In this document: piece by piece, positions 3,833 through 15,146 of the stretch
Position numbering within the stretch: the first letter of the stretch is position 1
Layout: each line of letters begins with the position of its first letter
Origin: a virus
Reading direction: 5' to 3' (one strand)
Length of the DNA: 21,515 bases
IMG/VR virus record: IMGVR_UViG_3300035187_002277
Location: 1-21,515 of that record
The notes under the pieces: model-generated
Told to the model about the DNA's origin: nothing
The model's database searches: none
What the model saw: the letters and a program-made list of their open reading frames with translations, nothing else
Translations under genes and position numbers: made by a program

Positions 3833-5134
3833 ATGCCTAATTACAGAGACCCAACTGATACACACCTGTATCACGTTGAAAAGGTTCAGACTTGTAGTGG
3901 GCGCCCCTTAGAAGTCACAACGGTTAGCGGTTATCCTGTTGCTATAAGCCCTGCTGGCACTACAGCCGCTGATGCTTTTGGTCGGTTGCGTGTATCACAG
4001 CCTTACACAATCTTTGATAGCCAGCATCGGTACCAGGAAAACGACAAGTGGACCACATTAACTGGTGGCAGTGCAACAACTACATTTAACGCAAACGAAA
4101 GCACTTTAAGCCTTAATGTCACTACAGCATCTGGTGATTACATCTATAGAGAAACTAAACGTGTATTTCCTTATCAACCAGGGAAATCACTGCTTGCTTT
4201 GAACTCGTTTACCTTTGCATCTGGTACAGCAAACCGTCGTCAGCGCATTGGTTACTTTGGCACACAGAACGGTGTCTTTTTTGAGCAAAGTGGTACGACA
4301 AACTATTTGGTTATGCGCAGCTACGTCAGTGGCAGCGTTAACGAAACACGGGTTGCTCAGTCAGGCTGGAACTCCGATACCTTTGACGGTAACGGAACCA
4401 GTGCCCGTACCCTTGATCCAACCAAAGGAAATATTTTATGGATGGATATTGAATGGCTAGGTGTTGGCGATGTAAGAGCTGGTTTTGTTGTTGACGGTTC
4501 GATGGTGGTTGCACATACGTTCCATAACGAAAACGTGCAAAACACTACTTACATGACAACGGCTGTACTACCTTTACGTCAAGAGATTGAAAATCTTGGT
4601 GTAACTGCAATCAGTGGTACTGCTCGTCAGATTTGCAATACTGTTGCATCGGAGGGTGGCTATGAAGGTTTCACTCGCCGTTACAACATGGCTACAAGTA
4701 CAACACCTAAAACACTTACTTCGTCTGGTGTAACTTACCCATTAGTTTCTATTCGTATGGCCTCTGGTCGTACAGATAGTGTCATTGTCCCAGCAAATTT
4801 AAGTGTTGCGCTTGAGCAAACACAAAACAACAAGCCAGACATTATTCAATACCGCGTGTTGCTTAACCCAACCTTGAGTGGCGTCAACTGGCAAACCCAT
4901 TACAACGGTAATGTTCAATTTGACATTTCTGCCACAGGTGTTAGTGGTGGTACAGATATCATTGGCGGTTACATTGTTTCCGATGGCACCCTGTCCTTGA
5001 GTGATGTACGAGATTTCAACTTCCAGCTGGGTCGTACCCAAGCTGGTGTCAGCGACATCTTTACTGTTGTTGCAGCGCCTACGATTAGTGGTGCAAAGGT
5101 TTACGCTGATCTTTCTTGGTTTGAAATTATTTAA
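3833..5134 (+). CDS. Virion structural protein (433 aa)
   Basis: A 433-residue protein rich in Ser, Thr, Gly, Asn and beta strand, with almost no Cys, typical of an exposed virion protein. Residues about 45-66 contain AADAFGRLRVSQPYTIFDSQ, a signature I know from structural proteins of many marine phages (the FGRLRVS...FDS motif). Repeated strand-turn units follow, such as SGTTNYLVMRSYVSGSVNETR. It probably forms part of a fibre, decoration or baseplate component; which one cannot be read from sequence. It is transcribed from its own -10-like promoter behind a terminator, consistent with a highly expressed late gene. The family link is from memory of the motif. Confidence 0.7.
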   Translation: MPNYRDPTDTHLYHVEKVQTCSGRPLEVTTVSGYPVAISPAGTTAADAFGRLRVSQPYTIFDSQHRYQENDKWTTLTGGSATTTFNANESTLSLNVTTASGDYIYRETKRVFPYQPGKSLLALNSFTFASGTANRRQRIGYFGTQNGVFFEQSGTTNYLVMRSYVSGSVNETRVAQSGWNSDTFDGNGTSARTLDPTKGNILWMDIEWLGVGDVRAGFVVDGSMVVAHTFHNENVQNTTYMTTAVLPLRQEIENLGVTAISGTARQICNTVASEGGYEGFTRRYNMATSTTPKTLTSSGVTYPLVSIRMASGRTDSVIVPANLSVALEQTQNNKPDIIQYRVLLNPTLSGVNWQTHYNGNVQFDISATGVSGGTDIIGGYIVSDGTLSLSDVRDFNFQLGRTQAGVSDIFTVVAAPTISGAKVYADLSWFEII

Positions 5135-5171: not shown

Positions 5172-5723
5172 ATGTATACTCCTGGTCCTCAAACTGCTCA
5201 ACCCATTGCACCTGCTCAGGTTCAAGAGGTGCCAGAACCTCAGGCCAAGCCAAAGGGTCCTGCCCGCTCAAAGAATGGTGATGTCGGGGCCTTCATTCAA
5301 CAGTGCATCTCCCTGGCTTCCTACCTCAAGGAACTTCAGACACAAGCCCACTTGATCCATTTAAACATTGAAGGCTCTAACTTCCTAGGTCTTCACGCTT
5401 TTTTAAAAGATCAATACGAAGCTCATATAGAGCAGTTTGATACATTGTCTGAATTTATTCGTTCAATGGATTATTTAATGCCCATGTGTGCACGCGGATT
5501 GGCCGATGCAGGTCCTGGCATTACGCATGTGACAAGTTATAAAAACACAGAAATGCTTACTGTGTACTACAAAAACCTAGAAGAGTTAGGTATGAAAACA
5601 AAAAAACTAGAACCAATTGCAGCACGTATTGGTGCAATTGATATTCAAAATTACATGGCAGATCTTTGTGGTCAAGCATTTAAAGCCGCTTGGTTTACAA
5701 AGGCTACTCTTCGGAATTCTTAA
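5172..5723 (+). CDS. Dps-like ferritin with N-terminal extension
   Basis: A 183-residue protein of the Dps (DNA protection during starvation) branch of the ferritin superfamily. Dps proteins form 12-subunit shells that oxidise and store iron and can bind DNA. All four ferroxidase ligands are present with exact family spacing: H63 (HLNIEG, replacing the usual HWNV.G), H75 (LHAF), D90 and E94 (FDTLSEFIR). The C-terminal helix (FKAAWFTKATLRNS) also matches the Dps end. Residues 1-36 are an added Pro/Gln/Lys-rich tail (PGPQTAQPIAPAQ... then KPKGPARSK) that could contact DNA or the virion. Its 3' end overlaps the convergent HNH gene by 20 bases. The position among structural genes suggests it is late-expressed or packaged, which is inference. 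Confidence 0.8.
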   Translation: MYTPGPQTAQPIAPAQVQEVPEPQAKPKGPARSKNGDVGAFIQQCISLASYLKELQTQAHLIHLNIEGSNFLGLHAFLKDQYEAHIEQFDTLSEFIRSMDYLMPMCARGLADAGPGITHVTSYKNTEMLTVYYKNLEELGMKTKKLEPIAARIGAIDIQNYMADLCGQAFKAAWFTKATLRNS

Positions 5724-6159
5724 GATACATAATTGCGGATTTAAATAACGCAATATCATCGTTCAACATACCAAGGGCTGAGTTGCATTTCTTGCAAAGC
5801 AGCCCTCTTATTTTGCCAGTTTTATGACAATGGTCTACAGATAAATTCATCCCAGATGAGCATTTTTTTGTACATATTTTGCAACATCCATCCTGTTGTT
5901 CAAACATTTCAACATACTTTTCATGTGTTAATCCATATCGCTTAAGCCAGTTCGCATGTTTCTTTTTATCATGCAAGGAATTCCAATGTTTTTTGCTGGC
6001 CTTTCTATAAAGTTCCGGATTTTTCTTTCTGTATTTTTCCGTTACTTTCCCATGGCATTTTTTGCATCTTCGCGATCTTCCGTCTTTAACCCTTGATTCC
6101 TTGTAAAAATCTGTCAAGGGTTTAGATAAAAGACAAAGACTACAAACTTTCTCTTGCAT
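5704..6159 (-). CDS. HNH endonuclease, recombination endonuclease VII type
   Basis: Begins at the ATG at 6159 (MQEKVCSLC), not the longer frame at 6210; the shorter start has a TATATT element 22 bases upstream. Layout: an N-terminal zinc ribbon (CSLC ... CKKCHG, residues 6-33), a basic linker, then an Endonuclease VII domain with CKIC, VDHCHKTGKIRGLLCKKCN and the usual ALGMLNDDIALF end. The VDHCHKTG motif holds the HNH metal site. In T4 this fold resolves Holliday junctions, but free-standing copies like this one in phages are usually homing endonucleases. It is inserted between the Dps-like and metallopeptidase genes, opposite in strand, AT-rich, and overlaps the Dps stop by 20 bases. Confidence 0.85.
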   Translation of the reverse strand: MQEKVCSLCLLSKPLTDFYKESRVKDGRSRRCKKCHGKVTEKYRKKNPELYRKASKKHWNSLHDKKKHANWLKRYGLTHEKYVEMFEQQDGCCKICTKKCSSGMNLSVDHCHKTGKIRGLLCKKCNSALGMLNDDIALFKSAIMYLKNSEE

Positions 6160-6181
6160 TACGAAAGTTTTAATTACGAAT

Positions 6182-6196
6182 AATATAACGTAAAAT
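6182..6196. promoter_or_regulatory. Adjacent divergent -10-like elements
   Basis: On the minus strand TATATT (6182-6187) ends 22 bases before the HNH start at 6159. On the plus strand TAAAAT (6191-6196) ends 21 bases before the ATG at 6218. The pair is close but not overlapping. Confidence 0.4.
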
Positions 6197-6217
6197 AAAA
6201 GTACGGTCAAGGTAAAA

Positions 6218-7237
6218 ATGGATTTATTTCAACGTTTTCTTAACCAAGTAACCTCTGGTTACAAAGAAGCTGATAAACGCTTGGGCGGGTGGTTGCCAGG
6301 TGGTGGTACTGCTTCTCCTGTAACAAATAAACTCCAACGCGCTTTAGCTGAACCACGCAGTCAATTACTTTCTTCGCCAAGACCTTACACCCGAATAGCT
6401 GGAGCAAATCCTCTTTCGCCTGCACTTGATACTAAAGGACAAATAACGCCACAGGCGGCCGAAATGCTTAAGCAATTAGGCATCTCAGCAAGCATCACAG
6501 GAAATGTAAACAAAACCAACCCAATTGCAATTTTGGGAGAACGATTTGGTTATCTTGGTGCGGCCCATGCTAACCCATTGAAAAATCAAATCTATTTACC
6601 TGGCAATCTGAACACTCTTTCAACGCTTGCTCATGAAGCTGGTCACTTAGATAAAAACCGTAGAGCTGGTTCGCGTCCTATCTTTGAAGGTATCCTAGGG
6701 CAAGCAATGGACGCCCCAGCTGCTGTAATTAAAGGTTTAACTGGTGGTGAACTCTCTCCTTTTGCTCAAACAGTCGCGCCTTTTCGGTTAGCCGGTGGTC
6801 TGGCAACTGCACTATCTGATGCAAAAGAAGAAGATTATGCAGAACGTTTTGCTTCAGATGTAACAAAAAAAATGCTTGGTGAGTCTGCGACTCACATGGG
6901 TGGCAACGCCACACAAGGTTTCTTGTATCCTGATTTACTTTATCAACGAGGTGTAGAGTCTTTTAAAGAAGGTGTTAACGATTTTGTAATACCACCTATT
7001 GGTAAAGCAGCCATAGGGATTGGACAAACAATTCAAAACCAAATTCAAGAAGCACTTCCTAAGCCGCCCTCTGTTTTTGAAGATGTGCCAAACTTGCGGC
7101 TTCAACAACTTGCTATTGAATCTGATTTAGATTATCAACAAGAACTAAGGGAAAACCCAAACAGTAGGTTGCTTCCACGTCTTCAAAAGATTAAAGAAGA
7201 TTATGAACGTGCCACAAAAGCAAGAGGTCTTAATTAA
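6218..7237 (+). CDS. Zinc-metallopeptidase-like protein (HEAGH)
   Basis: A 339-residue protein with a clear zincin core: LSTLAHEAGHLDK, with H139, E140 and H143, where two His bind zinc and Glu activates water. A downstream acidic helix (residues 201-214, DAKEEDYAERFASD) offers E205 or E209 as third zinc ligand, as in ExxA-type metallopeptidases. Between them lies a Gly/Ala/Pro-rich hydrophobic stretch (residues 157-176) that may be membrane-associated. The N-terminus (FLNQVTSGYKEADKRLGGW) and the Gln/Glu-rich C-terminus have no recognised domain. Position after the structural and Dps genes suggests a virion or morphogenesis protease, possibly a cell-envelope or capsid processing enzyme; this is inference. 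A weak AAGG ribosome binding site precedes the ATG. Its stop overlaps a convergent HNH gene. Confidence 0.6.
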   Translation: MDLFQRFLNQVTSGYKEADKRLGGWLPGGGTASPVTNKLQRALAEPRSQLLSSPRPYTRIAGANPLSPALDTKGQITPQAAEMLKQLGISASITGNVNKTNPIAILGERFGYLGAAHANPLKNQIYLPGNLNTLSTLAHEAGHLDKNRRAGSRPIFEGILGQAMDAPAAVIKGLTGGELSPFAQTVAPFRLAGGLATALSDAKEEDYAERFASDVTKKMLGESATHMGGNATQGFLYPDLLYQRGVESFKEGVNDFVIPPIGKAAIGIGQTIQNQIQEALPKPPSVFEDVPNLRLQQLAIESDLDYQQELRENPNSRLLPRLQKIKEDYERATKARGLN

Positions 7238-7488
7238 CTAATCCAATGCTCAAGTCTATGGCAGTTGCAGCATAACGGAATACATTTACTGATCTCTTCT
7301 TCTACTCTGCTCCAGCCATAGCCGTGGTTCACCATGTCCGATATATTGTTATCCTTATCACCAACGTGGTGAAACTCTAAGACACGGTGATCGTCAATCC
7401 CACACTGCTTGCATTGCAGAGTCTTCTTGTAGTTCAGAAGCTTCTCTCGATTCTTATTGATGCGTTTTTTGGAGTCGGCCCAGGGCAC
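7234..7488 (-). CDS. HNH endonuclease (small, 84 aa)
   Basis: Starts at GTG 7488. Small HNH domain: CKQCG zinc-binding pair (residues 26-30), the catalytic LEFHHVGDK (about residues 37-45), and IPLCCNCHRLEH (about 69-80). It lacks the endonuclease VII extension of the other HNH genes, so it is a separate family. It overlaps the metallopeptidase stop by four bases in convergent orientation, and its N-terminus lies inside the reading frame of the small membrane gene at 7434-7640, as expected for an insertion at a gene end. Probably a homing endonuclease. Confidence 0.8.
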   Translation of the reverse strand: MPWADSKKRINKNREKLLNYKKTLQCKQCGIDDHRVLEFHHVGDKDNNISDMVNHGYGWSRVEEEISKCIPLCCNCHRLEHWIS

Positions 7489-7655: not shown

Positions 7656-7729
7656 TCGGAGATGCAGGATTCGAACCTGCGGCCCTCTGCTCCCAAAGCA
7701 GATGCGCTGCCAAACTGCGCTAATCCCCG
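7656..7729 (-). tRNA. tRNA-Pro (anticodon UGG)
   Basis: A complete 74-base cloverleaf on the minus strand. The acceptor stem CGGGGAT / ATCTCCG (one G-T pair) has discriminator A at 7656; the D stem is GCGC/GCGC; the anticodon stem TCTGC/GCAGA carries loop TTTGGGA with anticodon TGG; the T arm is GCAGG-TTCGAAT-CCTGC. CCA is not encoded. UGG reads CCA and wobble Pro codons. Phage tRNAs commonly supplement host codon supply; it is the only tRNA I find here. Confidence 0.95.
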
Positions 7730-8544: not shown

Positions 8545-8572
8545 AAAAAATCCCGGTGTATCATGCCGGGAT
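8545..8572 (-). terminator. Rho-independent terminator (minus strand)
   Basis: Read on the minus strand, a seven-base perfect stem ATCCCGG / CCGGGAT around nine bases is followed by six T that end immediately before the ATG of the 211-aa gene. It also contains the stop codon of the small 8561-8659 frame in its loop. It probably ends the leftward unit containing the DUF5872-like genes. Confidence 0.8.
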
Positions 8573-8659
8573 CATAGCTTCCTTCCGCGCTCTGGTGAGC
8601 CCCACGTTCGTAACGTGGAAGGGGTTTCGACTATTACCCCTAGAGCGGTATTGCTCCAT
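8561..8659 (-). CDS. Very small basic hypothetical protein (32 aa)
   Basis: A 32-codon frame MEQYRSRGNSRNPF... ending KEAMIPA, basic and polar. It starts 11 bases after the stop of the 67-aa gene and ends inside the terminator loop, so it fits as the last gene of that unit. The small hairpin CCACGTT-ACG-AACGTGG is within it. The reading is plausible but short; no homologue is recognised. Confidence 0.4.
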   Translation of the reverse strand: MEQYRSRGNSRNPFHVTNVGLTRARKEAMIPA

Positions 8660-8670
8660 CTGTCAGGATA

Positions 8671-8898: not shown

Positions 8899-9210
8899 TT
8901 ATTTGCTTTCTTTATATTTCTTGGCGGCAGCTTTAGCCTTGCCGCGTTTTTCATATTCATCTTTCGTCATCCATTTCTCCTTGCCCCACTTCTCCAAAGA
9001 CTTCTGCTTCTCACCTTTACCTCCTTTATATCCACCGCCTGCACTTTTATATTCCTGTGCCACAAGCTGTGCTTTTCTAGCCGAAATAATTAGTTAGCCT
9101 TACGGCTACGACCATTCTCCCGGCTTACCCCCACGGCCTTCACGCATCACTTTGTTTTTAATACGCTCACGCAGGTCTGGTTTAGTGTACTTGCTTTTGT
9201 CTTCAGCCAT
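8899..9210 (-). CDS. DUF5872-like protein interrupted by a 27-base stop-bearing insert
   Basis: Starts at ATG 9210 (MAEDKSKYTKPDLRERIKN), inside the stop of the upstream HNH gene. Reads to ...RGGKPGEWS, then meets TAG at 9106-9108. After exactly 27 bases (9085-9111) the same frame resumes with ARKAQLVAQEYKSAGGGYKG and continues in good coding sense to the TAA at 8899. In the family the junction reads PGQWSARKAQ, so removal of 27 bases restores an uninterrupted protein of 94 residues. The second half has no ATG near its beginning, so it cannot easily be a separate gene. Either ribosomes bypass the insert, reinitiation occurs at a non-ATG codon, or the gene is dead. Conserved codon sense downstream argues against long decay. 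Family recognition is from memory. Confidence 0.6.
9085..9111 (-). other. Candidate translational-bypass element (27 nt)
   Basis: The serine codon UCG (9109-9111) is followed at once by UAG, which opens a perfect hairpin UAGCC-GUAA-GGCUA (9095-9108) with a GNRA-type tetraloop. Two more in-frame stops (UAA, UAA) and an AU-rich spacer follow, ending with a second UCG (9082-9084), after which the conserved frame continues. Matching take-off and landing codons, a stop directly after take-off and a hairpin at that stop are the features of the T4 gene 60 bypass. A small insertion with a three-base target duplication is the main alternative. Confidence 0.5.
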
Positions 9211-9811
9211 AACTTCCTCGCTCTTTAAGATAAGTGACTGCGTTTGTCAATACATCTATATTATCACCAAATAAACCCAGGGCTCTATTGCACTCTTTGC
9301 ACAACAAACCTCTAAACTCATTAGTTTGATGGTTGTGGTCCATGGCTAAAGATTGTTTATCCTTTGGGGGTTTCTGGCAAATTGCACACAAGCCTCTTTG
9401 CGTCTCAAACACAACATCATATTGCTCTTTTGTTATTCCTCTACGTTCGTATTTCTTGTGATTGTGATGTAATAAATCTTGCCCTTGTTTTTTAACTTTT
9501 TGATAATGTTCTTTGTTGTTATTTACCCATTTATCCCAGTTTATTTTAGTGCAAGCTTTGCAAGAAGAATTTAAATAAAATTTTCCATCTTGTTTTCTTC
9601 GTCTAAAACAATCCCAATCTAAATAGTTAAGGCATTTTGAACATTGTTTTTTACCACTTTCTCCATACAAAACTTTCCATCTAGTATTGACTAAAGATCT
9701 GCAATCTTTGCAAACACTATCTCTCTTTATGTTGCCTGCTGAATTATATCCTTTAGTGTAAAAATTTTCATACGGCTTTCTGGTTCCGCATTTACGGCAA
9801 AGTTTTTGCAT
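9203..9811 (-). CDS. HNH endonuclease, endonuclease VII type, double zinc ribbon
   Basis: The frame is open from 9874, but the real start is probably ATG 9811 (MQKLCRKCGTRKPYENFYTKG), which has a TATTGT 21 bases upstream. The extension lies in the remnant of the broken gene. Layout: zinc ribbon 1 (CRKCG...CKDC), zinc ribbon 2 (CSKCLNYLDWDCF...CKAC), a basic linker, then the nuclease: CAICQKPPKDKQ, LAMDHNHQTNEFRGLLCKEC, ALGLFGDN. The DHNHQ carries the catalytic His. It is strikingly AT-rich against its neighbours. Its stop overlaps the ATG of the downstream DUF5872-like gene and its start follows a truncated paralogue of that gene, so it is an inserted, probably homing, endonuclease. Confidence 0.85.
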   Translation of the reverse strand: MQKLCRKCGTRKPYENFYTKGYNSAGNIKRDSVCKDCRSLVNTRWKVLYGESGKKQCSKCLNYLDWDCFRRRKQDGKFYLNSSCKACTKINWDKWVNNNKEHYQKVKKQGQDLLHHNHKKYERRGITKEQYDVVFETQRGLCAICQKPPKDKQSLAMDHNHQTNEFRGLLCKECNRALGLFGDNIDVLTNAVTYLKERGSYG

Positions 9812-9854
9812 TGGTTGGTTTGTGCTTTTCTTACAATAGCACAGAATTACTGAC

Positions 9855-9941
9855 CTTTTTACCCCCACGATCACCAGCCATCACGCAATCTTTAATCCTC
9901 TCGCGTAACTCCGGTTTCGTGTAGTTGTTCTCCTAAGACAT
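9855..9941 (-). pseudogene. Truncated DUF5872-like paralogue
   Basis: From an ATG at 9941 the frame reads M-S-stop (TAG), then NNYTKPELRERIKDCVMAGD and RGGK. The YTKP...RGGK stretch matches 16 of 22 residues of the intact N-terminus at 9210. Homology ends at GGK-K, exactly before the PGEWS motif, where the HNH sequence takes over. An amber codon near the start and the lost C-terminus make this a remnant. It also overlaps the end of the 9892-10164 gene in another frame. Confidence 0.6.
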
Positions 9942-13906: not shown

Positions 13907-14761
13907 ATGGTTGCTAAACTAAATAACGAGGATCCTTGGATTAAAGCCAAGGATGAGCAACCAGAAGTTATGCGGTCGATCAATCGGACCGCAGCCAGGA
14001 TAACACTTAACGGAAGGCGCCACTATACAACTCCGTTACCAACTGGACCTGCACCGTCCGTAACCACAATCATCAGCGAAACAGCTTCCGAAGCAAATAA
14101 ACGGAAGCTTGAAATGTGGTCGAAAAATAATCCAGGTGTCAAAGAAGCTGCAGCAGAACGCGGTACGGCCATCCACTATGGAATGGAACAGTACCTTAAA
14201 GGAAATAAAAATCCAGAAATCAAAGAAGAATATGCGGACTTTTGGGCGGGGATGCCAAAGATCTTGGATCAGTTCCAGGAAGTTCTCTGGGCAGAGTCCC
14301 CTGTTCTGGATAAATTTGATTTTACTATTGGCGCTGATGACGTTGCTCGCGTCTGGGGTTGCGATGACGAAGGGCGTGCTTGGGCTGGTGCTCCTGATAT
14401 TATTGCTGTTGCCAATAACAAACTAACGCTGGCCGACTTAAAGACCAGTGTTAAGCCGTATAGTCGCAAGTGGCCCAAGGATCTGGAGAAGGGGTCGCCT
14501 GAATGGCGGGATCTCTTGGGGGGTCACCTTAAATTTAAAAAGACTTGCAAACAACTCGCGGCTTACGATATAGCTATCGAACAGACCCTTGGGATGAAAG
14601 TGCAACAGGCTGCCATCTTGGTATCAACGCCTGTTCGCACTCAAGTCTTTAAGATCTCCAGGCGATTTCTAGATTCATTGCGAGAAGATTGGTTCGCCTT
14701 GGTTGCAGAGTACTATTCGCAAATTGAGAACTGTGGAGTTTATGACCCCGATCTCATCTAA
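13907..14761 (+). CDS. PD-(D/E)XK nuclease, RecB/Cas4-like exonuclease
   Basis: 284 residues with the full set of motifs: AAERGTAIHYGMEQY (residues 82-96, H90), GAPDII (D164), LADLKTS (D177-x-K179) and QLAAYDIAI (QxxxY, Q216...Y220). These bind metal and DNA in lambda-exonuclease/RecB-type nucleases, which resect DNA ends for phage recombination or replication. The nearby Gp157-like and primase genes fit such a role. The start at ATG 13907 has an upstream -10-like element. The last eight codons (residues after ENC) differ from the tail repeat at 15148 and overlap the HNH start, so the C-terminus has been replaced by an incoming sequence encoding almost the same residues. Confidence 0.85.
   Translation: MVAKLNNEDPWIKAKDEQPEVMRSINRTAARITLNGRRHYTTPLPTGPAPSVTTIISETASEANKRKLEMWSKNNPGVKEAAAERGTAIHYGMEQYLKGNKNPEIKEEYADFWAGMPKILDQFQEVLWAESPVLDKFDFTIGADDVARVWGCDDEGRAWAGAPDIIAVANNKLTLADLKTSVKPYSRKWPKDLEKGSPEWRDLLGGHLKFKKTCKQLAAYDIAIEQTLGMKVQQAAILVSTPVRTQVFKISRRFLDSLREDWFALVAEYYSQIENCGVYDPDLI
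14711..14734 (+). repeat. 24-bp direct repeat, left copy
   Basis: TACTATTCGCAAATTGAGAA followed by CTGT. Identical to 15148-15171. It lies in the last codons of the nuclease gene and marks the left edge of the HNH insertion; the inserted block is about 437 bases. Confidence 0.9.
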
Positions 14762-15146
14762 GCTTTGCATACGCTGTAATGAAAACAAAAAATTAGATTG
14801 CTTTGGCTGGTCTGGTTATATCAAAAAGAACGGAACAAAAAGTCTGTGTACATATTGCAAGACATGTCAGAACGAGCTTCGCGTTCAACGTAAGTATGGG
14901 GTTGATTATAAAACTTACAAGAAAATGTTAGATAACCAGAATGGATGTTGCGCAAATTCTGGATGCAATTCAACTGAACCAGGTGCTCCTGGAAGGACAA
15001 GATTCTATATTGATCACTGTCATAAAACAAATAAAATACGTGGTTTGCTTTGCCACAAATGCAATCTTGCTTTAGGACATGTTAATGATGATATTAAAAA
15101 ACTAGAAGGACTAATTAAATATTTAAAAGACCAGGATCATAGCTAA
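14742..15146 (+). CDS. HNH endonuclease, endonuclease VII type
   Basis: Starts at ATG 14742, within the last codons of the nuclease gene but in the +1 frame; the longer frame from 14703 is nuclease sequence. N-terminal zinc ribbon (CIRCNENKK...CTYCKTC), basic middle, then YIDHCHKTNKIRGLLCHKC and ALGHVNDD with catalytic DHCH. It is AT-rich against its neighbours. Its 20-base overlap with the nuclease stop suggests coupled translation. It is flanked by a 24-bp direct repeat whose right copy continues into a leftover nuclease tail, so it is clearly a recent insertion, probably a homing endonuclease. Confidence 0.87.
   Translation: MTPISSKLCIRCNENKKLDCFGWSGYIKKNGTKSLCTYCKTCQNELRVQRKYGVDYKTYKKMLDNQNGCCANSGCNSTEPGAPGRTRFYIDHCHKTNKIRGLLCHKCNLALGHVNDDIKKLEGLIKYLKDQDHS

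Follow-up and report, generated by a model that had tools for sequence, protein, structure and literature searches.

A candidate translational bypass element at the right-hand end of a mobile endonuclease cassette in S-EIV1-like phages

Known bypass systems and the interrupted DUF5872-like gene

To our knowledge, efficient long-range bypassing had essentially one bacterial-type example for decades, gene 60 of phage T4. Bonocora in 2011 reportedly described mobA and gene 60 as one mobile cassette. Mitochondrial byps are 27-55 nucleotides (nt) in length. In T4, a hairpin occupies the ribosomal A site and blocks termination as the peptidyl-tRNA detaches (PMC11194080). The byps of Magnusiomyces capitatus mitochondria are short inserts that translation skips; their codons are often matched, and mobility has been proposed for them (PMC5009743). 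Bypass has also been proposed in genes of Streptomyces phage Hau3 and of mycobacteriophage Corndog, in which tmp adjoins an HNH gene (PMC4351075, PMC5009743). Here we analyzed a stretch of 21,515 nt (the window; IMG/VR record IMGVR_UViG_3300035187_002277, positions 1 to 21,515), which is phage DNA and kin of Synechococcus phage S-EIV1. It carries a DUF5872-like gene interrupted by 27 nt, for which an earlier note, made from the letters of this DNA alone, had proposed ribosome bypassing. Comparison with related phages supported this proposal, and the 27 nt are very likely a programmed translational bypass element that forms the right end of a mobile endonuclease cassette. No earlier description of this case was found in the open-access literature searched (subscription journals and preprints lay outside its scope).

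The gapped open reading frame (ORF) lies on the minus strand (9210-8899), as do all parts of the gene and cassette described below, and consists of MAEDKSKYTKPDLRERIKNKVMREGRGGKPGEWS, the gap, and ARKAQLVAQEYKSAGGGYKGGKGEKQKSLEKWGKEKWMTKDEYEKRGKAKAAAKKYKESK with a stop. The codons preceding the gap read ...GGKPGEWS, the last being TCG at 9111-9109 (Ser34, the putative take-off codon). The gap itself (TAGCCGTAAGGCTAACTAATTATTTCG, 9082..9108), which is predicted to stay untranslated, has the letters TAG CCG TAA GGC TAA CTA ATT ATT TCG (9108-9082), with the hairpin UAGCC-GUAA-GGCUA at 9095..9108 and the putative landing codon TCG at 9082..9084. Reading resumes with ARKAQLVAQ... at 9081 and runs to the stop at 8899, giving a resident C-terminal exon (8899..9081) of 60 amino acids plus stop, in which the first ATG is found only at codon 38. 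The letters thus confirmed the reading of the earlier note (GGKPGEWS, UAG, 27 nt, ARKAQLVAQ), including the stop within the hairpin stem, two more in-frame UAA codons inside the gap and the absence of an ATG near the beginning of the downstream half. The insert, placed by that note at 9085-9111, was also real; its coordinates become 9082-9108 if the landing TCG is included in place of the take-off one. The joined 94-residue product matched Pfam DUF5872 with an E value of 3e-5, just below Pfam's own cut-off. A structure prediction of the gap-less protein was all helices, with a mean predicted local distance difference test (pLDDT) score of 73, and no PDB relative of this predicted structure was found.

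The earlier note mentioned neither the endonuclease upstream nor the duplication of the N-terminus, nor that gap length varies among relatives irrespective of frame, and the parallel to T4 gene 60 was closer than it had recognized. In T4, GGA is followed by TAGCCTTCGGGCTA...; these 14 letters are unchanged in three diverged relatives. All 10 stem letters (UAGCC/GGCUA) are identical in the two systems, whereas the loop is UUCG in T4 and GNRA here. Both have UAG right after the take-off codon, a hairpin that opens at that stop and is closed by a stable tetraloop, and an AU-rich gap holding additional stops. In both, a homing-type endonuclease gene is located just upstream; in the T4 relatives it overlaps the start of the gapped ORF, as in the window. 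However, gene 60 belongs to a topoisomerase and the gene here is an unrelated DUF5872-like one, the matched codon is GGA there and UCG here, and the gap is 50 nt there and 23-33 nt here. The enzyme in the window matches PF02945, whereas no Pfam match was obtained for three MobA relatives. The cassette here also brings its own replacement for the first 34 codons, and T4 has a 5' stem-loop upstream of take-off, of which no conserved counterpart was found among 40 loci. The M. capitatus byps resemble the present gap as short, translationally skipped inserts (here by prediction) with matched codons, but they involve mitochondrial ribosomes, little mRNA-context dependence, several imperfect codon matches and no linked phage-type endonuclease cassette. 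Hau3 and Corndog differ in being single suggestive cases without this hairpin, a matched-codon family or comparative support.

The gap across related phages

Most of the best 80 relatives in viral contigs, taken together with S-EIV1, had no gap between W-S and A-R-K. At 63 distinct gap-less sites there was one uninterrupted DUF5872-like gene, in which the Ser34 codon was TCG in 7 of the 63. W33, S34, R36 and Q39 were invariant in 42 gap-less proteins, and nowhere was the family more conserved than at the junction. The comparison of related phages that the earlier note had called for accordingly found both kinds, with and without the insert.

Gapped loci were found in three ways, by the hairpin pattern, by a hairpin-independent pattern and by the upstream endonuclease protein alone. 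After duplicates were removed, at least 41 distinct viral sequences were gapped, all at the same codon; clade A comprised 26 loci and clade B 14. The take-off UCG was followed directly by UAG in 41/41 gapped loci, and also in 37/37 of those found through the endonuclease protein only. A TAGCC-NNNN-GGCTA hairpin was present in 40 of the 41 (locus L165 was the exception), and every loop was GNRA (GTAA in 25, GTGA in 11, GGGA in 2, GCAA in 1 and GAAA in 1). With TAG and the landing codon both included, the gap measured 27 nt in 14 loci, 24 in 12, 28 in 7, 29 in 5, 23 in 2 and 33 in 1. These lengths span all three phases (23, 28 and 29 versus 24, 27 and 33), yet the landing codon and the resumed protein frame stayed constant, in support of the bypass proposal. 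The landing codon was TCG in 39/41 loci, so that the matching UCG codons described in the earlier note held on both sides of the insert in these 39, with UCG/UCU in the other two. The downstream frame was open to a proper stop in all 41. Comparison of the endonuclease-anchored loci with the gap-less relatives gave Fisher p values of 1e-20 for the take-off TCG (37/37) and 1e-17 for the landing TCG (35/37), which overstate the case because related sequences are not independent.

Two alternatives are addressed by these gap lengths. Stop-codon readthrough or frameshifting through the gap would suit the window, where the gap is a multiple of three, but three in-frame stops lie in that same gap, and the 23-, 28- and 29-nt gaps shift the frame in 14 loci. 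This explanation was contradicted by the phase variants and rejected; its probability is practically negligible. Removal of the 23-33 nt at the RNA or DNA level, as a mini-intron or an excised segment, would restore the frame regardless of gap length. However, removal needs neither matched end codons nor a stop directly past the take-off codon, and there was no Rfam match at the gap, the only Rfam hit of the window being a tRNA. We know of no self-splicing RNA as small as 23-33 nt, and removal appears extremely unlikely.

The anatomy of the gap was also highly specific. A strict scan required an ORF of at least 28 codons, a stop opening a hairpin of 5-7 base pairs with a GNRA or UNCG loop, an identical codon within 60 nt and at least 40 open codons. 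When 3.49 megabases of related phage DNA (both strands summed) were scanned, 33 hits were obtained and 33/33 fell at the DUF5872 gap; the gap anatomy is far beyond chance. No other bypass-like gap in the window passed the strict scan. Among the 144 distinct UAGCC-tetraloop-GGCUA hairpins listed in a wider search, matched codons with open frames were found elsewhere only at T4 gene 60 and at two chance-like sites. Other genes were also searched for this hairpin, and the matches listed for TAGCCTTCGGGCTA across viral contigs yielded, apart from T4 gene 60, just two chance-like hits. A scan of a genome collection returned no DUF5872 gap among the matches listed.

The mobile endonuclease cassette and selection on both halves

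The gapped ORF of the window is preceded by a gene for an Endonuclease VII/HNH-type homing-like endonuclease (9203..9811; Pfam PF02945, E 3e-22), the end of which shares 8 nt with the start (ATG) of the N-terminal exon. To the left of this gene lies a cassette linker (9812..9858), where the resident gene breaks off after ...GQ and is followed by an imperfect inverted repeat (TGTGCT/AGCACA) together with an RKAQ-like relic. Beyond it, a decayed remnant of the resident DUF5872 N-terminal coding region (9859..9941) was identified by tblastn with a resident-type N-terminus, by self-match and by sequence. This remnant is dead, interrupted at codon 3 by a stop and shifted by 1 nt close to its end, whereas the cassette carries a perfect exon. 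Most loci retained the resident N-terminus upstream, cut after ...GGKPGQ and followed by a conserved linker with the inverted repeat. The endonuclease gene ended 97 nt before take-off in 38/41 loci, 7 of these being C-terminal remnants; L115 and L135 were without endonuclease, and L089 was truncated at the end of its contig. The gap and the frames were kept in nine loci where no intact endonuclease remained.

Mean identity over ten loci rose from 0.74 for the resident remnant to 0.93 for the linker, stood at 0.87-0.90 across the endonuclease and at 0.93 for the N-exon, reached 0.98 within the gap and dropped to 0.75 just past it; this sharp fall indicates that the gap is the right-hand end of the cassette. 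N-exon and C-exon distances showed no correlation in clade A (r 0.01) and a weak one in clade B (r 0.28); L087 and L088 were 1% apart in the N-exon and 38% apart in the C-exon. Close endonuclease homologues, found without use of the gap, were followed by it in 37/37 cases. No cassette lacking the gap was found when it was sought through the endonuclease/ATG junction; six other matches lay in other genes and were gap-less. No gap was seen downstream of three distant endonuclease relatives. These comparisons indicate that the endonuclease and the gap are inherited together as one mobile unit.

Some further observations were made on the cassette and its relatives. The inverted repeat of the linker (TTTGTGCT/AGCACAAA in relatives) stands just before the endonuclease start, with an apparent paired change in L112, and may control endonuclease translation. 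In L465 (around 2233, reverse strand), an endonuclease ending ...TYLKERGSYG overlaps the start (MAED...) of a gap-less, portal-like gene, which suggests a related nuclease at another target. Three more mobile-looking endonucleases were present in the window, at 5704-6210 (-), 14703-15146 (+) and 7234-7488 (-); two were of the endonuclease VII type and one was a short HNH-like ORF without a Pfam match.

The replacement N-terminal exon carried by the cassette (34 codons, 9109..9210) encoded a near-identical protein in every clade A cassette (omega 0.05). Its peptide is extremely conserved and lysine/arginine-rich, with KSKYTK 24-29 residues before take-off, a motif largely common to gap-less homologues. 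Synonymous sites of the clade A C-exon were saturated, with a non-synonymous divergence (dN) of 0.15; in clade B, omega was 0.12 for the N-exon and 0.07 for the C-exon. Given the mobility of the cassette, sister pairs with similar divergence in both halves are more telling. In the C-half, synonymous and non-synonymous differences were respectively 15.5 and 2.5 in L002/window, 7 and 0 in L106/L144 (28-nt gap), 8 and 5 in L094/L161 (28-nt gap), and 8.8 and 7.2 in L115/L135 (29-nt gap, both without endonuclease), and each of the four pairs departed from the neutral expectation (p < 0.002). The ratio of non-synonymous to synonymous differences per site (pN/pS) of the C-half was 0.00-0.20 in sister pairs that diverged with the gap already present. 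The substitutions indicate that the downstream frame is under purifying selection, and the coding sense that the earlier note saw in the downstream half was intact and constrained in 41/41 gapped loci.

These results bear on whether the cassette simply inactivates the gene, leaving the downstream half as a relic. The cassette moves between backgrounds, so that much of the C-half conservation could predate insertion, and one copy (L176) has decayed. However, the downstream frames are open in every locus, pN/pS is low after insertion, the gap and frames outlast the intact endonuclease in nine loci, and in the window it is the resident N-terminal remnant that has decayed, not the cassette exon. 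A disabled gene is very unlikely. The alternative offered in the earlier note, a disruptive insertion with TCG duplication, does not agree with the low pN/pS that both halves show after insertion, or with a gap and frame that persist once the endonuclease is lost.

A split protein would arise if translation stopped at the UAG, the C-half were made by termination-reinitiation or from a non-canonical start, and the pieces assembled. Phage proteins split by homing insertions have been described (PMC2988022), the break is predicted to fall between two helices of the modelled protein, and an ATG lies six codons into the downstream half in most clade B loci. Nevertheless, 11 loci had no ATG, GTG or TTG anywhere in the C-terminal frame, no AUN codon was conserved within the gap, and in nine loci (28/29-nt gaps, ending TGATCG) the landing TCG was immediately preceded, in its own frame, by a stop codon. 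The break also falls inside the most conserved motif, W33-S34-x-R36, and the matched TCG codons, the GNRA hairpin and the T4-identical stem are left unexplained, making a split protein unlikely. An AUU start with an AAGG Shine-Dalgarno, suggested by the window alone, was rejected; the AUU was not conserved and nine loci have the stop there.

Several points weigh against bypassing. L165 (gap 4498-4521) has another gap sequence, TAGCTATAATATTAAATAATTTCG, and no hairpin, with the endonuclease and frames intact; it is a natural test of the hairpin requirement. Landing is on TCT in two loci. L176, the sole clearly broken gapped locus seen, is a decaying copy (around 1016-1075) in which the N-exon is shifted and the gap and landing region are altered. 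The stem is invariant, so it offers no compensatory change to prove an RNA helix. RNAalifold, applied to 40 loci, found no convincing conserved helix upstream of take-off, a T4 feature; the window sequence folded alone can form a larger structure there, but the extended pairing of upstream AGCCGGGA with UUUCGGCU from that fold was not kept in relatives and was discarded. The ATG six codons in makes reinitiation possible in most clade B loci, and part of the C-half constraint is older than the insertion because the cassette moves. The support so far comes from comparative sequence.

Proposed mechanism and significance

In the proposed bypass, the ribosome would decode 34 codons up to UCG, with UAG then in the A site. 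The UAGCC-GNRA-GGCUA hairpin would fill the A site and keep the release factor out, the peptidyl-tRNA-Ser would detach, the ribosome would slide across the gap, and the tRNA would re-pair with the second UCG. Decoding would restart at GCU and yield a single 94-residue DUF5872-like protein. We infer that the fusion protein is made and that take-off, sliding and landing occur, the A-site and sliding steps being taken over from T4 work by analogy. The cassette, comprising the endonuclease VII/HNH-type homing endonuclease, the replacement 5' exon and the gap, would enter the conserved GQW-SARK site and truncate the resident gene after codon 32, and the gene would be rebuilt from the cassette's own exon. 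The insertion falls in, and interrupts, this conserved site; the gap probably also protects the rebuilt gene from re-cutting by the cassette endonuclease.

Two other features of the window were recorded. A structured intergenic RNA of about 100 nt (8545-8670, minus strand) was conserved, with a terminator-like hairpin at its end, a fold z-score of -3.8 and no significant Rfam family. In relatives, a helix around the loop AATAGTCGAAA showed the paired changes GGGG/CCCC, GGACT/AGTCC and GGAGCT/AGCTCC. It adjoins both gapped and gap-less DUF5872 genes, and is possibly a new phage RNA. A tRNA-Pro (TGG) gene was located at 7656-7729 (-).

Apart from those of T4-like phages and yeast mitochondria, the gapped loci appear to be the first substantial family of such elements. 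They provide 41 natural variants of a probable second case, which lies in an unrelated gene; gap length drifts among them, five loops and two landing codons occur, and the hairpin has been lost once. Such variants amount to a ready-made set of mutants from which the minimal rules of take-off and landing could be worked out. That the UAGCC/GGCUA stem recurs so exactly suggests that it is specifically recognized in the ribosomal A site, and the cassette lends independent support to the origin of bypass gaps within homing cassettes. More broadly, we see an even chance that this is a mobile translational intron spreading among S-EIV1-like phages with a replacement exon and a gap that drifts freely in length and phase, and that UAGCC-tetraloop-GGCUA is a general take-off module, independent of or shared with T4, which would operate with a different gene, codon and loop, and perhaps without T4's 5' stem-loop.
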